A stretch of 64,000 bases of DNA from Candidatus Rokuibacteriota bacterium (lineage in GTDB: Bacteria > Methylomirabilota > Methylomirabilia > Rokubacteriales > CSP1-6), in contig VGLJ01000009.1 of the NCBI GenBank assembly GCA_016866775.1, positions 1 through 64,000 on the forward strand, given 5' to 3'. Below are positions 9,114-16,356 of this stretch, piece after piece (position 1 is the first letter of the stretch; each line of letters opens with the position of its first letter). Position numbers and translations under genes: made by a program. The notes beneath the pieces were generated by a model. That model had not been told where the DNA came from. It saw only the letters and a list, made by a program, of their open reading frames with translations, and did not search any database.

Positions 9114-10379
9114 TCAGCGCGACGGCTTCCAGCCGATCCGCTCAGCGTCGAACGTCACGCTGAGGAAGACGATCGCCATCTCGTCCGTCGTGCCGTCGCC
9201 CCAGCTCACCGGACGCGGCGGCCGGTTCGGCTGGCGCGGGTTCTCGGCGGAGTTGTCGAACACCGCGACCATGTCGATCCGCGTGTTCTGCGGCAGCGGG
9301 ACGGGCTTCGCGAACATGTAGGCCCCCTGCCAGTTGAAGTCCCAGTCGTCGATGTGGATCAGCGGGCGGACGGTGCCGTCGGGATACGTCGCCGTCACCG
9401 TCATCGCGCGCCCGAGCAGGTGCATGTGCGGCGAGATCGCGTTCGCGTGGAGGTCCCGACCGAACGGCACCGTCCACGACGCGCGCACTTCGTGGCGGCG
9501 CTCGCCGGGCGGGATCGTGAACGTGCGGTTCAGGATCGGGATGCTGCGCTGGCGCTTGTCGATCGGCCCCGTGGCGAAGTGGAGCGCCATGCGCGTGCGA
9601 TCGCTGCGGGTCGTCGGTCCGCTGTTGTGGTAGTGCATCTGCAGCACGACGTTCGCGCCTTTCGGCAGCAGCATGCCGACGCCGTCCTCCAGCACCCGCG
9701 GCCGGATGCCCGGCGCCCACCCCGAGAGCCCACCCGCCGACGCGAAGCCGGGACCGCCGAAACACGTGTAGCCGAGACCGGGTTCGCCGTGATCGAGCCG
9801 CTCCGCCGCACCCGTCGTGTCGATGTACGAGAGGATGTGGTGGACGAGCTTCCGATCGCCCGGGGCGTACTCGGCCTTCGTGACCCAGCGATCCTCCGGA
9901 AAGTTCGTCGGGATCACGAAGCAGCGGTACACGTCGCCGGCGCGCGCGGGCACGGTGTACGTCTCCGCCATCTCGAGCACGTGATCGGGCGCCCCGAGTG
10001 TCCATCCCTTTGGGAACACGACCGGCGGCGGCAGCTTCGCGGGATCGCCCTCGGGCGCGCCCGCCGCGACCCAGCGCACGAGCGTGGTGAGCTCGGTCTC
10101 GGACAGCCGGCGCGATCCGAGGAAGTCGCCGAACCCGGGCACCGGCTTCCACGGCGGCATCGCCCGTCCCTGCACGGCGTCGCGAATGTCGTCCCGCCGC
10201 TGATACACGTCGCGATAGGTGAGCAGCGAAAACGGCGCGTGCTCGCCGGGGCGATGACAGGTCTGACAGCGCTGCTGCAGGATCGGCGCGACGTGCTCGC
10301 TGAAGGTCGGCGGCTCCAGCGCCGGTGCCGTGCTCGCGAGCAGCACCACCGCCAGAGCCGCCGTCAACAGCCCGCGCAT
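9114..10379 (-). CDS. Secreted cytochrome c-copper type II monooxygenase-like fusion protein
   Basis: The product is 421 residues. A signal peptide (1-20) is followed by a c-type heme site CQTCH (38-42), with AMPPW as a possible axial-Met region. A two-domain copper monooxygenase-like part follows, resembling peptidylglycine alpha-hydroxylating and dopamine beta monooxygenases. H180-H181 in KLVHHILSY match the first copper pair, and H249 in LQMHYHNSG matches its third ligand. H318-x-H320 in SPHMHLLG match the HxH of the second copper. The substrate is unknown and the active site is periplasmic. A tethered heme could deliver electrons to the copper centres. It is the last gene of a minus-strand run, four bases after the amidohydrolase. 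Confidence 0.75.
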   Translation of the reverse strand: MRGLLTAALAVVLLASTAPALEPPTFSEHVAPILQQRCQTCHRPGEHAPFSLLTYRDVYQRRDDIRDAVQGRAMPPWKPVPGFGDFLGSRRLSETELTTLVRWVAAGAPEGDPAKLPPPVVFPKGWTLGAPDHVLEMAETYTVPARAGDVYRCFVIPTNFPEDRWVTKAEYAPGDRKLVHHILSYIDTTGAAERLDHGEPGLGYTCFGGPGFASAGGLSGWAPGIRPRVLEDGVGMLLPKGANVVLQMHYHNSGPTTRSDRTRMALHFATGPIDKRQRSIPILNRTFTIPPGERRHEVRASWTVPFGRDLHANAISPHMHLLGRAMTVTATYPDGTVRPLIHIDDWDFNWQGAYMFAKPVPLPQNTRIDMVAVFDNSAENPRQPNRPPRPVSWGDGTTDEMAIVFLSVTFDAERIGWKPSR

Positions 10380-10383
10380 CGGA

Positions 10384-11541
10384 CTACTTGATCAGGCCGT
10401 AGAAGCGCCCCGCGTTGTCGCAGGTCATGGCCTCCGTCACCGCTTCGGGCAGGTGCTTGAATTGCTCGCTGATGTACTTCTCGGATTCCGGCCACACCCC
10501 GTCCGGATGCGGATAGTCGGAGCCCCACATCAGCGTCTCGAGGCCCATCTCGTCGATGAGCTTCGTGCCCACGCGATCGTACTGGAACGTCGCCTTGCAC
10601 TGACGGCGCCAGTATTCGCTCGGCAGCATCTTCAGCGGCAGGTCGTGGTACTGGTCCTGGAACTCGAAGTCCATGCGGTCGAGAACGTACGGGATCCAGC
10701 CGATGCCGCTCTCGCCGAAAACCACGCGGATGTTTGGATAGCGCTCGAACACCGCCTTGCCCATGAGCGAGGTGAGGATGTTCGCGAGCGTGATCTGGAA
10801 CATGCAGAGGCCGCTGTACGTGAGCGCGCGCTGGGTGAGGCCCGTGTACTTGTTGCGCAGGTCCGGCGACACCGACGGGAACGTGTGGAAGTGCAGCGGC
10901 AGGTTGACCTCGTTCATCGCCGCCCACAGCGGCTCCCACTGGTCGTGCCACATCGGCTCCATCTCCCACGAGCACGAGAGCTCGATGCCTCGGAAGCCCA
11001 TCTTGGCGACGCGATGCACTTCCTTCACCGCGGCATCGATGTCGCCGTACGGCAGGTTCGCGAGGCCGATGTGCCGGTCCGGATACTGCGCGATGAAGTC
11101 CGCCATCCACGTGTTGTAGATGCGGACCATCTCGTTCGACGCCTCGATGTCCTTCAGCTTCGCGGCGGCGGCGAGGATCCCGTAGATGACCTCGGCGTCG
11201 ACGCCGTCACGATCCATCTCCTTGATGCGCAGGTCCGGATCGCCCGGGCGGCGGATGCCCTTGCTGCCGTCGGTGTAGAGGCCGGTCGACGCCATCACGT
11301 CGACGCGCAGCTGCTTGCCCGGCTGGTACTTGGTGCCCGACGCGCCCACACCGCCGGCGATCCCGAACTTGATGGCGCCGCCCTTCGCGACCCACCACTT
11401 GTCGCCGTTGGCGTCGGGCTGCGGGTCGACATACGGCATCCGGTCCTTGAGGTTCGCCGGCGCTTCCGACGTGAACAGATCGGGAGGCAGCCAGATGAGA
11501 TCGAGGTGACAGTCCGCGGAAATGCGCCGGTATTCCCTCAT
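10384..11541 (-). CDS. Amidohydrolase family 2 (ACMSD-like) protein
   Basis: This is a TIM-barrel metal hydrolase or decarboxylase related to aminocarboxymuconate-semialdehyde decarboxylase (385 residues, no signal peptide). The N-terminal metal motif, usually HxH, appears as ADCHLDL. Later ligands are expected in LPLHFHTF and in the C-terminal MWGSDYPHPDGVWPES, where a catalytic Asp is standard in the family. The chain ends in CDNAGRFYGL, the normal terminus. It overlaps the upstream epimerase by ATGA. In this kind of genome such proteins accompany CoA-transferases and binding proteins, but the substrate is not deducible. Confidence 0.85.
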   Translation of the reverse strand: MREYRRISADCHLDLIWLPPDLFTSEAPANLKDRMPYVDPQPDANGDKWWVAKGGAIKFGIAGGVGASGTKYQPGKQLRVDVMASTGLYTDGSKGIRRPGDPDLRIKEMDRDGVDAEVIYGILAAAAKLKDIEASNEMVRIYNTWMADFIAQYPDRHIGLANLPYGDIDAAVKEVHRVAKMGFRGIELSCSWEMEPMWHDQWEPLWAAMNEVNLPLHFHTFPSVSPDLRNKYTGLTQRALTYSGLCMFQITLANILTSLMGKAVFERYPNIRVVFGESGIGWIPYVLDRMDFEFQDQYHDLPLKMLPSEYWRRQCKATFQYDRVGTKLIDEMGLETLMWGSDYPHPDGVWPESEKYISEQFKHLPEAVTEAMTCDNAGRFYGLIK

Positions 11542-12485
11542 GCCCTTCCTCCTGTGACCAGCGGGAGCCCTTCGGAACGTCGCACGTCGTTGATCACCTC
11601 GAGCACCCGCGTGTGCAGGCCGGGGAACTCGATGCCGAACTCCTTGGTGAGCCGGCTGTTGTCGACCAGGTAGTTGCCGGAGTCTTCACGCCCGCCGTCC
11701 TCCGCGAACGTGATCTTCGCATCCGGGAGGAATCCGCGCACGATTTCCGCGAGCTCGCCGAGGCTCACGGGAATGCCGCCCGAGTTGTAGAGATGGTGGC
11801 GGGGCGCCTCGGCCATGAGGACGCGGAGAAAAATTTCCGCAATGTCCTCCACGTGGATGAGCGTGCGCATCAGGCCCTTCTTCGGAAGATGCACCGGCTT
11901 CCCGCGGGCGGCTTCCACCATGATTTGCACGTGATCGACGGATCCGCGCACCTTGTCGGGCCCGGTCACGTTCGCGGGACGGACGCCGACGATCGACATG
12001 CCGTAGTTCTTGATGTACTTCTGCGCCTGGAACTCGTTGAACATCTTGTGCATCGCGTACTGGCTCGTGCCGTAGTGAGGATCGTCCTCGGTCGCGAGCC
12101 GGTCGCCGAACTTGCTCTGCTGCCCGCTCACGGCGATCGAGCTCGCGTACACCACGCGCTTGACGCCGGTGAGGCGCGCCGCCTCGAAGCAGTTGTCCAT
12201 GCCGAGAACGTCGAGGCGCATGACCTGGTGCGGATTGCCCTCGCCCGCGCCGAGCCCGTACGCGAGGTTGATGACTCGCTCGGGCTTGACGTCGAGCATG
12301 ATGCGGATGACGTCCTCGAACTGCGTGATGTCGCCGCGGATGACCGGCGCGCCGATCGGGACGTCGGCGAACGCCGCGGCGCCGGGGTTCAGGTCCACCC
12401 CGATCACCGATTCGCCGCGCGCGACCAGCTTCCTGACGAGCCGCGGCCCGATGAAGCCCGTCGCGCCGAGCACCAGCGTCGACAT
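11538..12485 (-). CDS. NAD(P)-dependent epimerase/dehydratase (extended SDR)
   Basis: This 315-residue Rossmann-fold sugar epimerase/dehydratase-type enzyme has the nucleotide motif GATGFIG (residues 7-13) and an acidic residue at the end of beta-2 (VIGVDLN), which suggests NAD. The catalytic Y-x-x-x-K is YAMHK, preceded by the ASSIAVSG serine region. The substrate domain has VRPANVTGPDKVRG and the typical HVEDIAE. A GGGC-like ribosome site precedes the ATG at 12485, and the 3' end is coupled to the amidohydrolase by ATGA. It may act on a nucleotide sugar or another hydroxy-acyl substrate. Confidence 0.87.
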   Translation of the reverse strand: MSTLVLGATGFIGPRLVRKLVARGESVIGVDLNPGAAAFADVPIGAPVIRGDITQFEDVIRIMLDVKPERVINLAYGLGAGEGNPHQVMRLDVLGMDNCFEAARLTGVKRVVYASSIAVSGQQSKFGDRLATEDDPHYGTSQYAMHKMFNEFQAQKYIKNYGMSIVGVRPANVTGPDKVRGSVDHVQIMVEAARGKPVHLPKKGLMRTLIHVEDIAEIFLRVLMAEAPRHHLYNSGGIPVSLGELAEIVRGFLPDAKITFAEDGGREDSGNYLVDNSRLTKEFGIEFPGLHTRVLEVINDVRRSEGLPLVTGGRA

Positions 12486-12495
12486 AGCGCCCTCT

Positions 12496-12873
12496 CTACG
12501 CGTCAGGGATGCGTGTGGACTGCCAGGCGATCATGCGCCAGTTTCCGCCGCTGTTCTTGTAGACGGCCAGGTAGCGGACGGTGAACCGGTTGTCCTTGCC
12601 GTCGCGCTCGACGTGCATCTCGGACGTGCCGTTCACGATCCCGACGTCCCCGTGGACGCGCACCGCGCGGTCGCGCGGCGCGATGCCGCGATAGTGCGGC
12701 TTGCCGCCACGCAGGTTGGCGACGTGCTCCGCCTTCGTCTCCTGGCGCGCGGTCGAGTGCACGTAGGTGAGGTCGTCCGCGAGCGCGGCGTCGAGCGCGG
12801 GCCAGTCTTCCTTGCGCATCGCCTCGAACCGCCGGTCGTCGGCCTGGAGGACGGCAGCTTCCGTGGGCGTCAT
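12496..12873 (-). CDS. NTF2-like/SnoaL-like protein (nuclear transport factor 2 family)
   Basis: This is a small cone-shaped alpha+beta protein of 125 residues. The ATG at 12873 was chosen because a near-perfect ribosome site, AAGGAGAGG, lies six bases upstream. An earlier in-frame ATG (12891) would place that site inside the coding region. The helix LQADDRRFEAMRKEDWPALDAALADDLTYVH and the strands GIAPRDRAVRVHGDVGIVNGTSEMHV and YLAVYKNSGGNWRMIAWQSTRI fit the DUF4440/SnoaL pattern. The function is unknown. Such proteins act as isomerases, lyases or small-molecule-binding subunits. Confidence 0.8.
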   Translation of the reverse strand: MTPTEAAVLQADDRRFEAMRKEDWPALDAALADDLTYVHSTARQETKAEHVANLRGGKPHYRGIAPRDRAVRVHGDVGIVNGTSEMHVERDGKDNRFTVRYLAVYKNSGGNWRMIAWQSTRIPDA

Positions 12874-12887
12874 GGTCCTCTCCTTGA

Positions 12888-12924
12888 ACATGGGGCCCCC
12901 ACAGCTGAGGACCCCCAAACCCCC
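12888..12924. repeat. G/C-tract intergenic repeat, copy A
   Basis: On the plus strand this reads ACATGGGGCCCCC, then CAGCTGAGGA, then runs of C separated by AAA. It fills the gap between two minus-strand genes and abuts the ribosome site of the downstream one. The same skeleton occurs at 63367-63401 in the same position relative to its gene, and in shortened form at 27301-27331. The GGGGCCCC core is a palindrome able to form a hairpin. Confidence 0.6.
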
Positions 12925-12925
12925 A

Positions 12926-13327
12926 TTACCACAGCGGGGTGGTGTTCATCGCCGAAACGTGGGCGGAGACCACCTTCCAGCCGACGTCCGCAAATCGTAC
13001 CCAAGTTTGGCTCTGCCGGCCGATCAAATCGCGGCCCCGCACCTTGAACTCGAGGTTCACGGTCGCGAAGTCGCGGCCGAGCGTGAGGATCTCCAGCCGG
13101 ATGCGCTTCTCCTTGATGCCGGGCCCCGGCGGGCGCGCGACCCGGTGCGCGTGGATCTCGTCGAAGCCGTAGCCGTGCTCGGTCATCGCGTACCGGATCG
13201 TGTGCGGGCTCCGCCAGAACGTGTTGTCGAGGACGTCGACGTCCTTGTCGATCAGCGCCTGCTCGTAGCGCTCGAACAGCGCGCGCACTTCGGCGACGAC
13301 TTCCGGAATGTTGGGAGTCATGTCCAT
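12926..13327 (-). CDS. AtzH/HpxZ-like NTF2-fold protein (DUF3225 family)
   Basis: This 133-residue protein resembles the AtzH-like family, which includes HpxZ of oxalurate catabolism and AtzH of cyanuric acid degradation. Diagnostic stretches are LFERYEQALIDKDVDVLDNTFW, SPHTIRYAMTEHGYG, RDFATVNLEF and GRQSQTWVRF followed by VVSAHVS. The start is taken as ATG 13327 (MDMTPNIPEVV); ATG 13321 is a close alternative. It follows the amidase gene by seven bases. The same neighbourhood, an amidase plus this fold, occurs in the atz and hpx systems, where AtzH acts as an amidohydrolase. A role in hydrolysing a small amide or urea derivative is therefore plausible. Confidence 0.78.
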   Translation of the reverse strand: MDMTPNIPEVVAEVRALFERYEQALIDKDVDVLDNTFWRSPHTIRYAMTEHGYGFDEIHAHRVARPPGPGIKEKRIRLEILTLGRDFATVNLEFKVRGRDLIGRQSQTWVRFADVGWKVVSAHVSAMNTTPLW

Positions 13328-13334
13328 CGTGTCA

Positions 13335-14510
13335 TCACGGCGCACAACCGGCAAGGGCGTTCGCCACCGCGATCAGCGCGGCGTCGCTGCCGCGCCCGCC
13401 GAGGATCGAGAGGCCTACCGGAACACCGTCGACCTCGGCCCCCGGGATCGTGATCTGCGGCACGCCCGTCAGCCCGCCGTGCGCGGCGAGACAGAGGATG
13501 CGGGAGCGCAGCGGGTCGAGCGTCGGAAGCGGCAGTCCCTTCTTCGGCGCGGGACACGGCGTCGTCGGCATGCACAGGGCCGTACCGGGAGGGAGCAGCC
13601 ACGCGAGCCGTGCGCGCGCTTCCATCCGCATCAAGGCCGCCCACTGCCGCTCGCTCTCGGAGACCGTGGTCGAGAGCGCGAGGTTGCGCGCGACGCTGAA
13701 TTGCATCCGCGGGTTGTCGCGCTCGATCCAGTCCCTGAACGTGAGCCACGCCTCGTGGCGTTGCAGCGTCGTCTGCGCCTTGCCCCACACCGAGAGGCCG
13801 GGCGGTGCCAGCAGGTCTTCGCGAACGTCGCGCACGAGCGTCGACAGCTTCTTCACCATCGGCTGCAGGGCGGCCGCTGTCTCGGGATCGGCGAAGCCGA
13901 ACGCGTCGACCGCGATGACGAGCCGGAGCGGCAGGCCCGCGGCAAGCGACTCGCCGAGCATGACCGCGGAGACGCGCGCGAACGTTGCCGCGTCGCGCGC
14001 GAACCATCCCGTCGTGTCGGCGCTCGGGGCCTGCGGCAGCATGCCGGTGAGATCGAGCCGGCCGTGCGTCGGACGGATGCCGTAGAGCCCGCAGAAGCTC
14101 GCGGGCACGCGCACCGAGCCGCCCGTGTCGGTGCCGAGCGCGGTGTCACAGAGGCCTTGCGCGACGGCCGAGGCAGAGCCGGACGACGAGCCGCCGGGCA
14201 CGCGGTCGGGCGCCTTCGGGTTGAGCGCCGTGCCTTCGAACGGGTTCTCGCCGAGGATGCCGAGCGACACCTCGTCGGTGATCGTCTTGCCGATCAACGT
14301 GGCGCCGGCGTCGAGCAGCCGCTGCACCGCCCACGCGTGCTTCGCGGGGACCGGATGCTGCTTCGCCCAGTCGGGGTTACCGCCGCCCGTCGGGTGGCCG
14401 GCCACGTCGAACAGGTCCTTCGCGGCGAACGTGAGACCCGCGAGCGGTCCGCTCGGCGCACCTGCGACCCGTACGGACGTGCCGGGGACGAACGGGCCGG
14501 TTGAAGCCAT
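13335..14510 (-). CDS. Amidase signature family protein (AtzE-like)
   Basis: The product is 391 residues with the Ser-cisSer-Lys amidase triad. K31 is in TFAAKDLFDV, the serine-rich loop is PGGSSSGSA (105-113), and the nucleophile S132 is in DTGGSVRVPASFCG. The C-terminal part has ALCMPTTPCPAP and GLTGVPQITIPG, normal for the family. It is on the short side (many are 450-480). The ATG at 14510 lies five bases after the stop of the TRAP-type binding protein gene. With the AtzH-like gene downstream, it probably hydrolyses a carboxamide in a small nitrogen-containing compound. Cytoplasmic. Confidence 0.87.
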   Translation of the reverse strand: MASTGPFVPGTSVRVAGAPSGPLAGLTFAAKDLFDVAGHPTGGGNPDWAKQHPVPAKHAWAVQRLLDAGATLIGKTITDEVSLGILGENPFEGTALNPKAPDRVPGGSSSGSASAVAQGLCDTALGTDTGGSVRVPASFCGLYGIRPTHGRLDLTGMLPQAPSADTTGWFARDAATFARVSAVMLGESLAAGLPLRLVIAVDAFGFADPETAAALQPMVKKLSTLVRDVREDLLAPPGLSVWGKAQTTLQRHEAWLTFRDWIERDNPRMQFSVARNLALSTTVSESERQWAALMRMEARARLAWLLPPGTALCMPTTPCPAPKKGLPLPTLDPLRSRILCLAAHGGLTGVPQITIPGAEVDGVPVGLSILGGRGSDAALIAVANALAGCAP

Positions 14511-14515
14511 GGTCC

Positions 14516-15433
14516 TCAGCTGAGGCCGGCGAGCAGGGTCGGGTCGAAGTCGCGCTCGAGCCTCGCGCGCACAGGCCGGACAGCGTCGACGAACGCGGCG
14601 TGCTCCGCGGGCGTCAGGTGGACGACCTCGTTCTCGCGCGGATCGAGCTTCGCGAGCACCTCCTGATCTTCCGAGATCGCCAGGCGGCGCTGAAGCGTCG
14701 TGGCCTCGCGCGCCGCCTCGTCCACAGCGCGCCGTACGTCGTCCGGCCAGGACTCGTAGTGGCTCGCGTTGCAGAGCAGGAAGCTCGCGCCGAAGAAGTG
14801 ACCCGTCAGCGTGATGTGGCGATGGTACTTGTGCACGCCGAAGACGTAGATGCTGGTCAGCGGGTTGTCGTGGGCGTCGACCGTGTCGCCGCCGACCTCC
14901 TGCACGAAGCGCTTGATGTCGATGGCCATCGGCACGAAGCCGAGCGCGCGGAACACCTCGCCGTGCAGCGCGCTGCCCTGCGTGCGGATCCTGAGCCCGC
15001 GGCAATCGTCCGGCCGGCGGATCGGCCGGACCTTGTTGGTGAGATGGCGAAAGCCGTTGTCCCAGCGGCCGAGCACGCGGAACGGCGTGGTCGCGTGCAT
15101 GCGTCGCACGAACCGGTCGCCCAGCGCGCCGTCGAGCGCGCGCCATACCGTCGCGCGGTCGCGCACGACGAACGGCAGCTCGAGGAGCGCGAGCTCGGGG
15201 ACGTCCCTGCTGAACCGCACCGTGGACATGTAGCAGAGCGAGAGCTCGCCCTTCTCGACCATCACCGGCAGATCGGCCGAGGGCCGTCCGAGATCCAGCA
15301 CGCTCGGAATCAGCTCGAAGCCGATCCGGTCGCCGAGCTTCTGCGCGAGGAGCTCGCCGAGCCGGCGCGCCGCCTGGTTGTGGATCGACGCCGGCGGCTG
15401 GTAGCCGCCGGCCTTGATCGCGAGCGCGGTCAC
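14516..15433 (-). CDS. TRAP transporter DctP-like solute-binding protein without a signal peptide
   Basis: This 305-residue DctP-family protein shows the typical LRIRTQGSALHGEVFRALGF substrate-binding segment (with the conserved Arg), MAIDIKRFVQEVGGDTVDAHDNPLTSIYVF and HITLTGHFFGASFLLCN. The first residues, MTALAIKAGGYQPPASIHN, begin straight at the first beta-strand, and no secretion signal is seen. The DctQ and DctM membrane subunits are also absent from the window. The ATG overlaps the stop of the VOC gene by four bases, so the start is well fixed. It may be a cytoplasmic ligand-binding or chaperone-like protein, or a transporter component that lost its signal. Confidence 0.8.
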   Translation of the reverse strand: MTALAIKAGGYQPPASIHNQAARRLGELLAQKLGDRIGFELIPSVLDLGRPSADLPVMVEKGELSLCYMSTVRFSRDVPELALLELPFVVRDRATVWRALDGALGDRFVRRMHATTPFRVLGRWDNGFRHLTNKVRPIRRPDDCRGLRIRTQGSALHGEVFRALGFVPMAIDIKRFVQEVGGDTVDAHDNPLTSIYVFGVHKYHRHITLTGHFFGASFLLCNASHYESWPDDVRRAVDEAAREATTLQRRLAISEDQEVLAKLDPRENEVVHLTPAEHAAFVDAVRPVRARLERDFDPTLLAGLS

Positions 15434-16356
15434 GCGACCTCGACCAGCTCGATCGCCTCGCGGCTCGGGCCCTCGATCATCACCGCGCGCGCGGTGCCGA
15501 GCTTGTACGGCTCCTCGAGGAGCCTGACGCCTTCGCCGCGGAGCTTGGCGATCCAGGCGTCGAGGTCGCCGACGCTCAGCGCGATGTGATCGTAGAGGTG
15601 CCCGCGCGAGCTCACCATCGGCTGATCGGCCTGGCGCATGTACGCCGGGAACATCACATCCCCGAAGATGACCGCCGCGGACGGCGAGCGGAACATCCCT
15701 CCGCGCTCGAGCGCCGGCCAGCTGCGCTCGGTACCGCGCGCCACCTTGCAGGTCGCTTCCGTGAGCGGCGTGTCGCTCGTGCGTCCCGCGGGCACGCCCG
15801 CGTTGAGATGCGTCTGGTACCAGAGCTGTGCGCAGAACGGATCGTCGTGGAAGAAGTGCACGTGGTTGAAGCGCTCCGCCGGGTAGTTACCGGCGTACTC
15901 CACGAGCGCCTTGTCCGGCCCCGCCATGTAGCCGAAGCCGCCCTTCCGCGTCGGCTGCACGCCCTTCGCGATCGCGTCGGCGATCTGCGCCTTCGTGAGG
16001 CCCGGCGTGCGGTTCACGCTCGGCCACGTGTCGCTGCTGACGAAGACCGAGCCGCCCTCGTCGGTGGTGTACAGCGGCAACAACGTGACGTCCGCGCGGG
16101 ACGTGTACGTGGCGAGGCTGGCGTGCGTGTCGGTCACGTGCCAGCCGAAGTGCCAGATCGCGGTCTGCGGCGACGTCGGTGGAGGCGTGCCGACTTTCGT
16201 GAACAGCACGAGCACGTCGTTCGGCGCCGCGAGCGCGGGCAGGCCGCCCCACGTCGTCTTGGTGCTCCTCGGAAAGTGGCGGACGTAGAAGTCGATCGCG
16301 GCGTCCGGATCGACGGAGTTCAGGTGGAGGTGATGGAAGCCCGGCGCCGGAAGCAT
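15430..16356 (-). CDS. VOC superfamily (glyoxalase/extradiol dioxygenase-fold) protein
   Basis: The product is 308 residues with paired beta-alpha-beta-beta-beta modules. FHHLHLNSVDPDAAIDFYVRHF opens the first. RFNHVHFFHDDP and GHLYDHIALSVGDLDAWIAKLRGEGVRLLEEP give later metal-ligand histidines. A terminal Glu ligand is likely in REAIELVEV. The ATG at 16356 has a perfect AAAGGAGG ribosome site, which settles the start although the frame is open well upstream. It is the first gene of the minus-strand run towards 12496 and is coupled to the TRAP-type gene. A ring-cleaving or isomerase role is possible. The substrate is unknown. Confidence 0.83.
   Translation of the reverse strand: MLPAPGFHHLHLNSVDPDAAIDFYVRHFPRSTKTTWGGLPALAAPNDVLVLFTKVGTPPPTSPQTAIWHFGWHVTDTHASLATYTSRADVTLLPLYTTDEGGSVFVSSDTWPSVNRTPGLTKAQIADAIAKGVQPTRKGGFGYMAGPDKALVEYAGNYPAERFNHVHFFHDDPFCAQLWYQTHLNAGVPAGRTSDTPLTEATCKVARGTERSWPALERGGMFRSPSAAVIFGDVMFPAYMRQADQPMVSSRGHLYDHIALSVGDLDAWIAKLRGEGVRLLEEPYKLGTARAVMIEGPSREAIELVEVA

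Follow-up and report, generated by a model that had tools for sequence, protein, structure and literature searches.

Can a bacterial copper hydroxylase draw its electrons from a heme built into its own chain? The question is raised by a gene in the window, the whole stretch of 64,000 nucleotides from Candidatus Rokuibacteriota bacterium (contig VGLJ01000009.1) that was analysed, for which the initial annotation had proposed a c-type heme joined to a copper type II monooxygenase, with the heme replacing ascorbate or cytochrome b561 as electron donor. PHM and DBH are familiar from animals: PHM finishes peptide hormones, DBH makes noradrenaline, and vitamin C is their electron source. As described in PMC6123673 and PMC4846438, one copper of PHM and DBH (CuM) binds O2 and hydroxylates, the other (CuH) relays an electron, and ascorbate carries out two one-electron reductions; the crossing of electrons between the two coppers is presented as still debated (PMC4846438). 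Among the open-access papers listed by our searches, judged by titles and the starts of abstracts, we found no description of a heme-fused PHM-like enzyme. No NCBIfam model matches the window protein up to E 1, and the 68 aligned family members yield one weak match, to a lipoprotein family. Domain databases probably display the fusion already.

The gene lies on the minus strand, and the plus-strand reading of 9114-10379 gives an unrelated arginine- and histidine-rich translation. The initial annotation had delimited the open frame exactly but left its strand unstated, and the histidines that it named (H180, H181, H249, H318 and H320) are correctly numbered in the translation. Four motifs stand out in the protein, CQTCH at residues 38-42, HH at 180-181, HYH at 249-251 and HMH at 318-320, preceded by a probable signal peptide that the AlphaFold model renders as a helix over residues 2-15 with pLDDT 65-71.

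Table 1. Features of the heme-copper monooxygenase gene, in window coordinates.
Feature	Position	Strand	Evidence
Coding sequence, 421-aa heme-c/copper monooxygenase	9114..10379	-	Complete open frame and translation; relatives at 80 loci (best 80 of 151)
Probable Sec signal peptide, about residues 1-21	10317..10379	-	Hydrophobic leader in the sequence
Monoheme cytochrome c domain, about residues 22-125	10005..10316	-	Sub-threshold Pfam Cytochrome_CBB3, Haem_bd and PccH; weak PccH structural match; family alignment
Heme attachment motif CQTCH, residues 38-42	10254..10268	-	Row conservation
Met74 of the MPPW motif, likely distal heme ligand (putative role)	10158..10160	-	81/81 rows
Two-domain PHM-like copper core, residues 129-416	9132..9995	-	VIA-align over model residues 129-415/416; Foldseek; profile match
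His180-His181, CuH ligands (PHM H107, H108)	9837..9842	-	Conservation and profile alignment
His249, CuH ligand (PHM H172)	9633..9635	-	Conservation and profile alignment
His318-x-His320, CuM ligands (PHM H242, H244)	9420..9428	-	Conservation and profile alignment
Met401, CuM ligand (PHM M314)	9177..9179	-	Conservation and profile alignment
Gln351 of the IDDWDFNWQ motif, counterpart of PHM Q272	9327..9329	-	Conservation and profile alignment

We examined the fold of the copper part using an AlphaFold model of the window protein built from the family alignment (pLDDT 92.9, pTM 0.87). Foldseek matches the model to PHM with E 2.6e-15, and VIA-align superposes the two over 265 residues at 20% identity (Z 22.6, rmsd 2.9) and gives Z 21.1 for DBH, showing that the two-domain jelly-roll core of the PHM/DBH superfamily is present. 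A PDB search with a profile of 68 family members also reaches PHM (E 5e-14) and DBH (E 1.8e-6); the single window sequence, searched in the same database, returns no relevant match, and only the family profile reached the two enzymes. Against Pfam, the window protein stays below both gathering cut-offs, with 21.3 of the required 30 bits for PF01082 and 18.2 of 23 bits for PF03712, the latter cut-off being passed by matches in 19 of 99 Planctomycetota genomes. We take these sub-threshold scores as a sensitivity limit of the models, since fold and ligands were tested directly. Searched with PF03712 at E 1e-3, the protein's own genome gives nothing despite the presence of the gene, and Pfam-based absence is therefore weak evidence.

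The six copper ligands were located through the profile alignment, which sets the three-His CuH site and the two-His-one-Met CuM site on the PHM counterparts listed in Table 1; the PHM residue numbers used here are those that we take to equal the chain positions of 1opm plus 44. In the 81-row family alignment, H180, H181, H249 and H318 are invariant, and H320 and M401 are kept in 80 of 81 rows (M401 with one gap). Across 187 near-full-length frames from relatives, H180, H181, H249, H318 and M401 are each conserved in 186 and H320 in 185, and relatives as distant as 36% identity retain the six positions. Taken as an alignment result, the agreement of these positions with the PHM ligands is far beyond chance. 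Clustering of the ligands in space is predicted from this equivalence to PHM. The HH, HxH and HxH patterns that had been read as copper sites do contain the PHM ligands, but within 249-251 only H249 is a ligand position: H251 is histidine in 50 of 81 rows, as against 81 of 81 for H249. Apart from this, the conservation of all five named histidines in both sets, the PHM fold of the model and the placement of every ligand on its PHM counterpart bear out the initial assignment of a c-type heme and a copper type II monooxygenase. The sixth copper ligand, Met401, and the likely distal heme ligand, Met74, are absent from that assignment.

Residues beyond the ligand set were also compared with PHM. 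C153 and C206 occupy the positions of what we take to be the C81-C126 disulfide of PHM; both are cysteine in 39 of 81 rows, and 5 of the 42 rows that lack C206 have a cysteine at 153. In the wider set, the pair is found in 51 of 187 frames, and C153 without C206 in 18. The counterpart of PHM Q272, Q351, is glutamine in 81 of 81 rows and 184 of 187 frames, and that of PHM Q170, Q247, in 140 of 187 frames. In PHM, according to PMC6123673, Q272 and Q170 are linked to H108 and the substrate through a network of water molecules.

Ahead of the copper core, residues 22-125 form a small helical domain (pLDDT 85.7 in the model) with the CQTCH motif and a distal MPPW motif. C38 and Met74 are invariant over the 81 rows; C41 and H42 are each present in 80, the remaining row having a gap. 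The protein thus has the CxxCH and distal Met expected of a monoheme, class I-like cytochrome c, with Met74 as a putative ligand judged from its conservation. Structural comparison relates the domain to PccH (Z 6.7) and to the heme domain of hydrazine synthase alpha (Z 4.8), both weak matches, and a Foldseek search with the heme domain by itself reaches E 1.0 at best. The family profile finds the same two proteins in the PDB at similarly weak values (PccH E 0.057, hydrazine synthase heme domain E 0.069), so that the nearest solved relatives agree by two routes, both weak. Three matches to Cytochrom_C_asm over the cut-off in the protein's own genome indicate that the host is able to mature c-type heme.

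We asked how general this combination is. A copper-only profile of 38 sequences (A2), applied at a genome match threshold of 1e-5, has matches in 17 of 95 genomes of the window's phylum, 28 of 149 of the acidobacterial phylum and 58 of 149 of the planctomycete phylum. Copper-domain frames that are unique by their last 60 residues number 201, of which the 187 near-full-length ones were retained; most of the 14 dropped frames seem to be fragments of truncated or interrupted genes, and three are distant (L115, L215 and L216). CxxCH, a heme-profile match, MPP and all six copper ligands occur together in 180 of the 187 frames, a count in which the profile and many of the frames (77 named loci) derive from loci partly found via the heme motif. 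Among the exceptions, L004 is a frame break whose CQTCH sits in an overlapping frame, the frames of L116, L140, L146 and L160 contain no CxxCH, L077 lacks one copper ligand, and L198 1219-2586 has lost all six while keeping CxxCH. The CxxCH lies 88-102 residues from the start of the copper-domain match. A Pfam-first check, which avoids the heme-motif bias but draws on overlapping planctomycete genomes, gave 33 PF03712 matches in 24 of 99 Planctomycetota genomes; 30 loci were fetched, and all 30 have a CxxCH upstream in frame. At the level of sequence, the fusion is the rule among the relatives examined. The three distant frames (527-656 aa) are partial copper-domain matches with E 2e-13, 4e-13 and 1e-8, respectively; none matches the heme profile, and CxxCH is present in L115 and absent from L215 and L216, indicating that heme-less relatives may exist.

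These results together make it likely that the window protein works in the periplasm as a copper hydroxylase of the PHM/DBH superfamily that uses O2 and has an electron-entry domain of its own. The heme would take single electrons from a periplasmic donor and pass them to CuH (His180, His181 and His249); one electron would reach CuM (His318, His320 and Met401), where O2 would bind and a C-H bond would be hydroxylated, and CuH would deliver the second in the course of turnover, the way PHM and DBH work. In this way the heme would do the job of the two ascorbates in animals. The near-universal retention of the heme motif among the relatives examined strengthens the proposal that heme serves as the donor in place of ascorbate or cytochrome b561, and an ascorbate-independent, heme-fed copper hydroxylase family, in which electrons would move from heme to copper, is our best reading. 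The heme could also serve another role, as an electron acceptor or a sensor. If the flow were reversed, with the copper oxidising a substrate or a metal and the heme exporting the electrons, the protein would be a dehydrogenase or a metal oxidase. In other fusions c-type cytochromes often serve as electron acceptors, and the present data would fit either direction of flow, but the two-His-one-Met CuM site and the Q272 and Q170 counterparts form the O2-activating arrangement of PHM and DBH, and we regard reversed flow as unlikely.

Neighbouring genes bear on another alternative, that of a peroxide-driven copper peroxygenase or a peroxide-defence protein working with a redoxin, the heme merely priming the copper. 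A redoxin-like protein with a conserved Cys-Pro motif accompanies the monooxygenase in 38 of the 80 loci (L008, L009, L040, L044, L064 and others), fused N-terminally in 14, fused C-terminally in 2 and adjacent in 22, and three representatives are Redoxin/AhpC-TSA by Pfam. The other 42 loci, including all nine from Rokubacteria, have no redoxin in the stretch examined, which in L003 begins at the gene; a role as obligate partner is thereby ruled out, and a peroxygenase appears quite improbable. Both C153 and C206 are cysteine in none of the 22 proteins with an adjacent redoxin and in 9 of the 14 with an N-terminally fused one, and since adjacent and fused cases differ in this way, lineage is the simpler cause of the pattern. 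In six acidobacterial loci (L016, L032, L035, L036, L037 and L039), a same-strand gene lies directly downstream of the monooxygenase; that of L036 encodes a cytochrome P450 (Pfam E 9e-91) and the other five are its relatives (E 8e-159 or better). Redoxin and P450 neighbours were not used to assign a substrate.

In the window itself, the monooxygenase is the last gene of a tightly packed minus-strand run (9114-13354) that begins with an AtzH-like gene (142.3 bits against the HpxZ model, cut-off 135) and continues with SnoaL/DUF4440, NAD epimerase and Amidohydro_2 genes, the last of these separated from the monooxygenase by 4 bases. The run resembles an operon devoted to some organic compound. 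In the nine Rokubacteria loci, the other genes of the run have no relatives except for a 24%-identical amidohydrolase in L003, and the gene neighbourhood was dropped as a clue to the substrate, the run being largely not common to close relatives. Nine neighbouring frames from five Rokubacteria loci gave one short-chain dehydrogenase by Pfam and eight frames without a match, some of which are probably shadow frames for that reason. About 5 kb upstream of the monooxygenase and on the same strand lies a gene that we named VOC-like from its translation (15430-16338); it is 77% identical in two of the nine Rokubacteria loci (L002 14-343 and L004 755-1657) and is the only close shared neighbour found.

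The substrate pocket speaks to a further possibility, that the protein is a true peptidylglycine hydroxylase, acting on glycine-extended peptides as PHM does and relying on a separate lyase. Its fold and copper ligands are those of PHM, and genes that resemble a dipeptide-type ABC transporter, as judged from their translations, adjoin it on the other strand. However, the counterparts of PHM R240, N316 and Y318, which we take to be its peptide substrate-binding residues, are S316, I403 and F405 in the window protein. Position 316 is occupied by 14 different residues among the 187 relatives, by arginine in 6 of them, and asparagine is found at 403 in 3 and tyrosine at 405 in 16. The frame ends with the copper core and has no fused lyase domain. 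The transporter-like genes are convergent with the monooxygenase gene, and in the 80 loci relatives of their four membrane and ATPase genes occur in 1 to 6 loci each, those of the binding-protein gene in none. Because the peptide-binding residues of PHM are not conserved and the pocket varies, peptide amidation is unlikely, and we give a true peptidylglycine hydroxylase very little credence; the caution over the substrate in the initial annotation was well placed. A pocket that varies next to conserved metal sites suggests that the same reaction is carried out on several substrates and speaks against peptide amidation. Rather than a peptide with a C-terminal glycine, the enzyme probably acts on a small compound that is exported or lies outside the cell, and paralogues probably differ in their substrates. 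That the protein has no catalytic role and binds or senses copper instead is highly improbable: the L198 paralogue without the six ligands indicates that the scaffold may serve without copper, but Q351 and all six ligands, which make up two sites of different build, are retained in several phyla.

Heme-copper proteins of this kind are found in Rokubacteria, Acidobacteria, Planctomycetes, Verrucomicrobia, Armatimonadota, Bacteroidota (Saprospiraceae and Kapaibacterium) and Latescibacterota, and in a quick 116-row tree the window protein groups with Rokubacteria. Its own genome has one copy. The acidobacterial genome G209 has the gene in at least 15 distinct places among the matches listed, and the 14 unique near-full-length copies tallied in the stretches retrieved from it all keep the heme motif and the ligands. 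Six acidobacterial genomes (G178, G190, G209, G218, G227 and G236) have 20 to 24 copper-domain matches each, counts that include split genes and may therefore overstate the number of genes. As read from these matches, there is a large paralogue expansion in these genomes. In another acidobacterial genome (G110, L198 1219-14889), six heme-copper monooxygenase genes lie within 14 kb, one of them being the copy without copper ligands. Our analysis suggests that, where animals rely on vitamin C, these bacteria supply the copper enzyme with electrons from a heme in its own chain. More tentatively, and with some doubt on our part, a large bacterial branch of the PHM/DBH superfamily may have a standing covalent heme, work independently of ascorbate by passing electrons one at a time from heme to CuH and on to CuM, and have diversified into many substrate types; the ascorbate-dependent animal enzymes may descend from this form through loss of the heme domain or its replacement by DOMON. 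The family is a large set of predicted C-H hydroxylases in soil phyla. Since the electron donor of the bacterial form is coloured, can be followed over time and belongs to the same chain, electron entry could be watched directly.

Compared with known systems, the heme-fed hydroxylase proposed here is closest to PHM in its copper part, with which it shares the two-domain core fold, the six ligand positions, the Q272 and Q170 counterparts and, presumably, the position of the C81-C126 disulfide. It differs in its N-terminal heme c domain, in residues for the substrate carboxylate that are not conserved and in having no fused lyase. Geobacter PccH and the hydrazine synthase alpha heme domain, the nearest solved relatives of the heme domain by weak matches, are not fused to a copper monooxygenase. 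DBH has the same catalytic core and, like the bacterial protein, an extra domain ahead of it. In DBH this is DOMON, a beta-sandwich that, according to PMC4846438, folds like the cytochrome domain of cellobiose dehydrogenase and showed no binding pocket in a CASTp search reported there; in the bacterial protein it is a helical c-type heme domain. Pfam matches of the window protein up to E 10 include no DOMON but cytochrome c-type models instead, and the dimerisation helices that follow the core of DBH are not seen in the bacterial model. That a heme domain can feed a copper monooxygenase is known from cellobiose dehydrogenase and lytic polysaccharide monooxygenases, which are separate proteins with a b-type heme and the LPMO fold. 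RpNiR of Ralstonia pickettii, a three-domain heme-copper nitrite reductase, has cupredoxin copper sites, reduces nitrite and has a catalytic fold different from the PHM type. Its likeness to the bacterial protein, as we understand it, is that electrons can enter within one chain, the cytochrome domain being tethered to the copper enzyme, as PMC6278305 describes.
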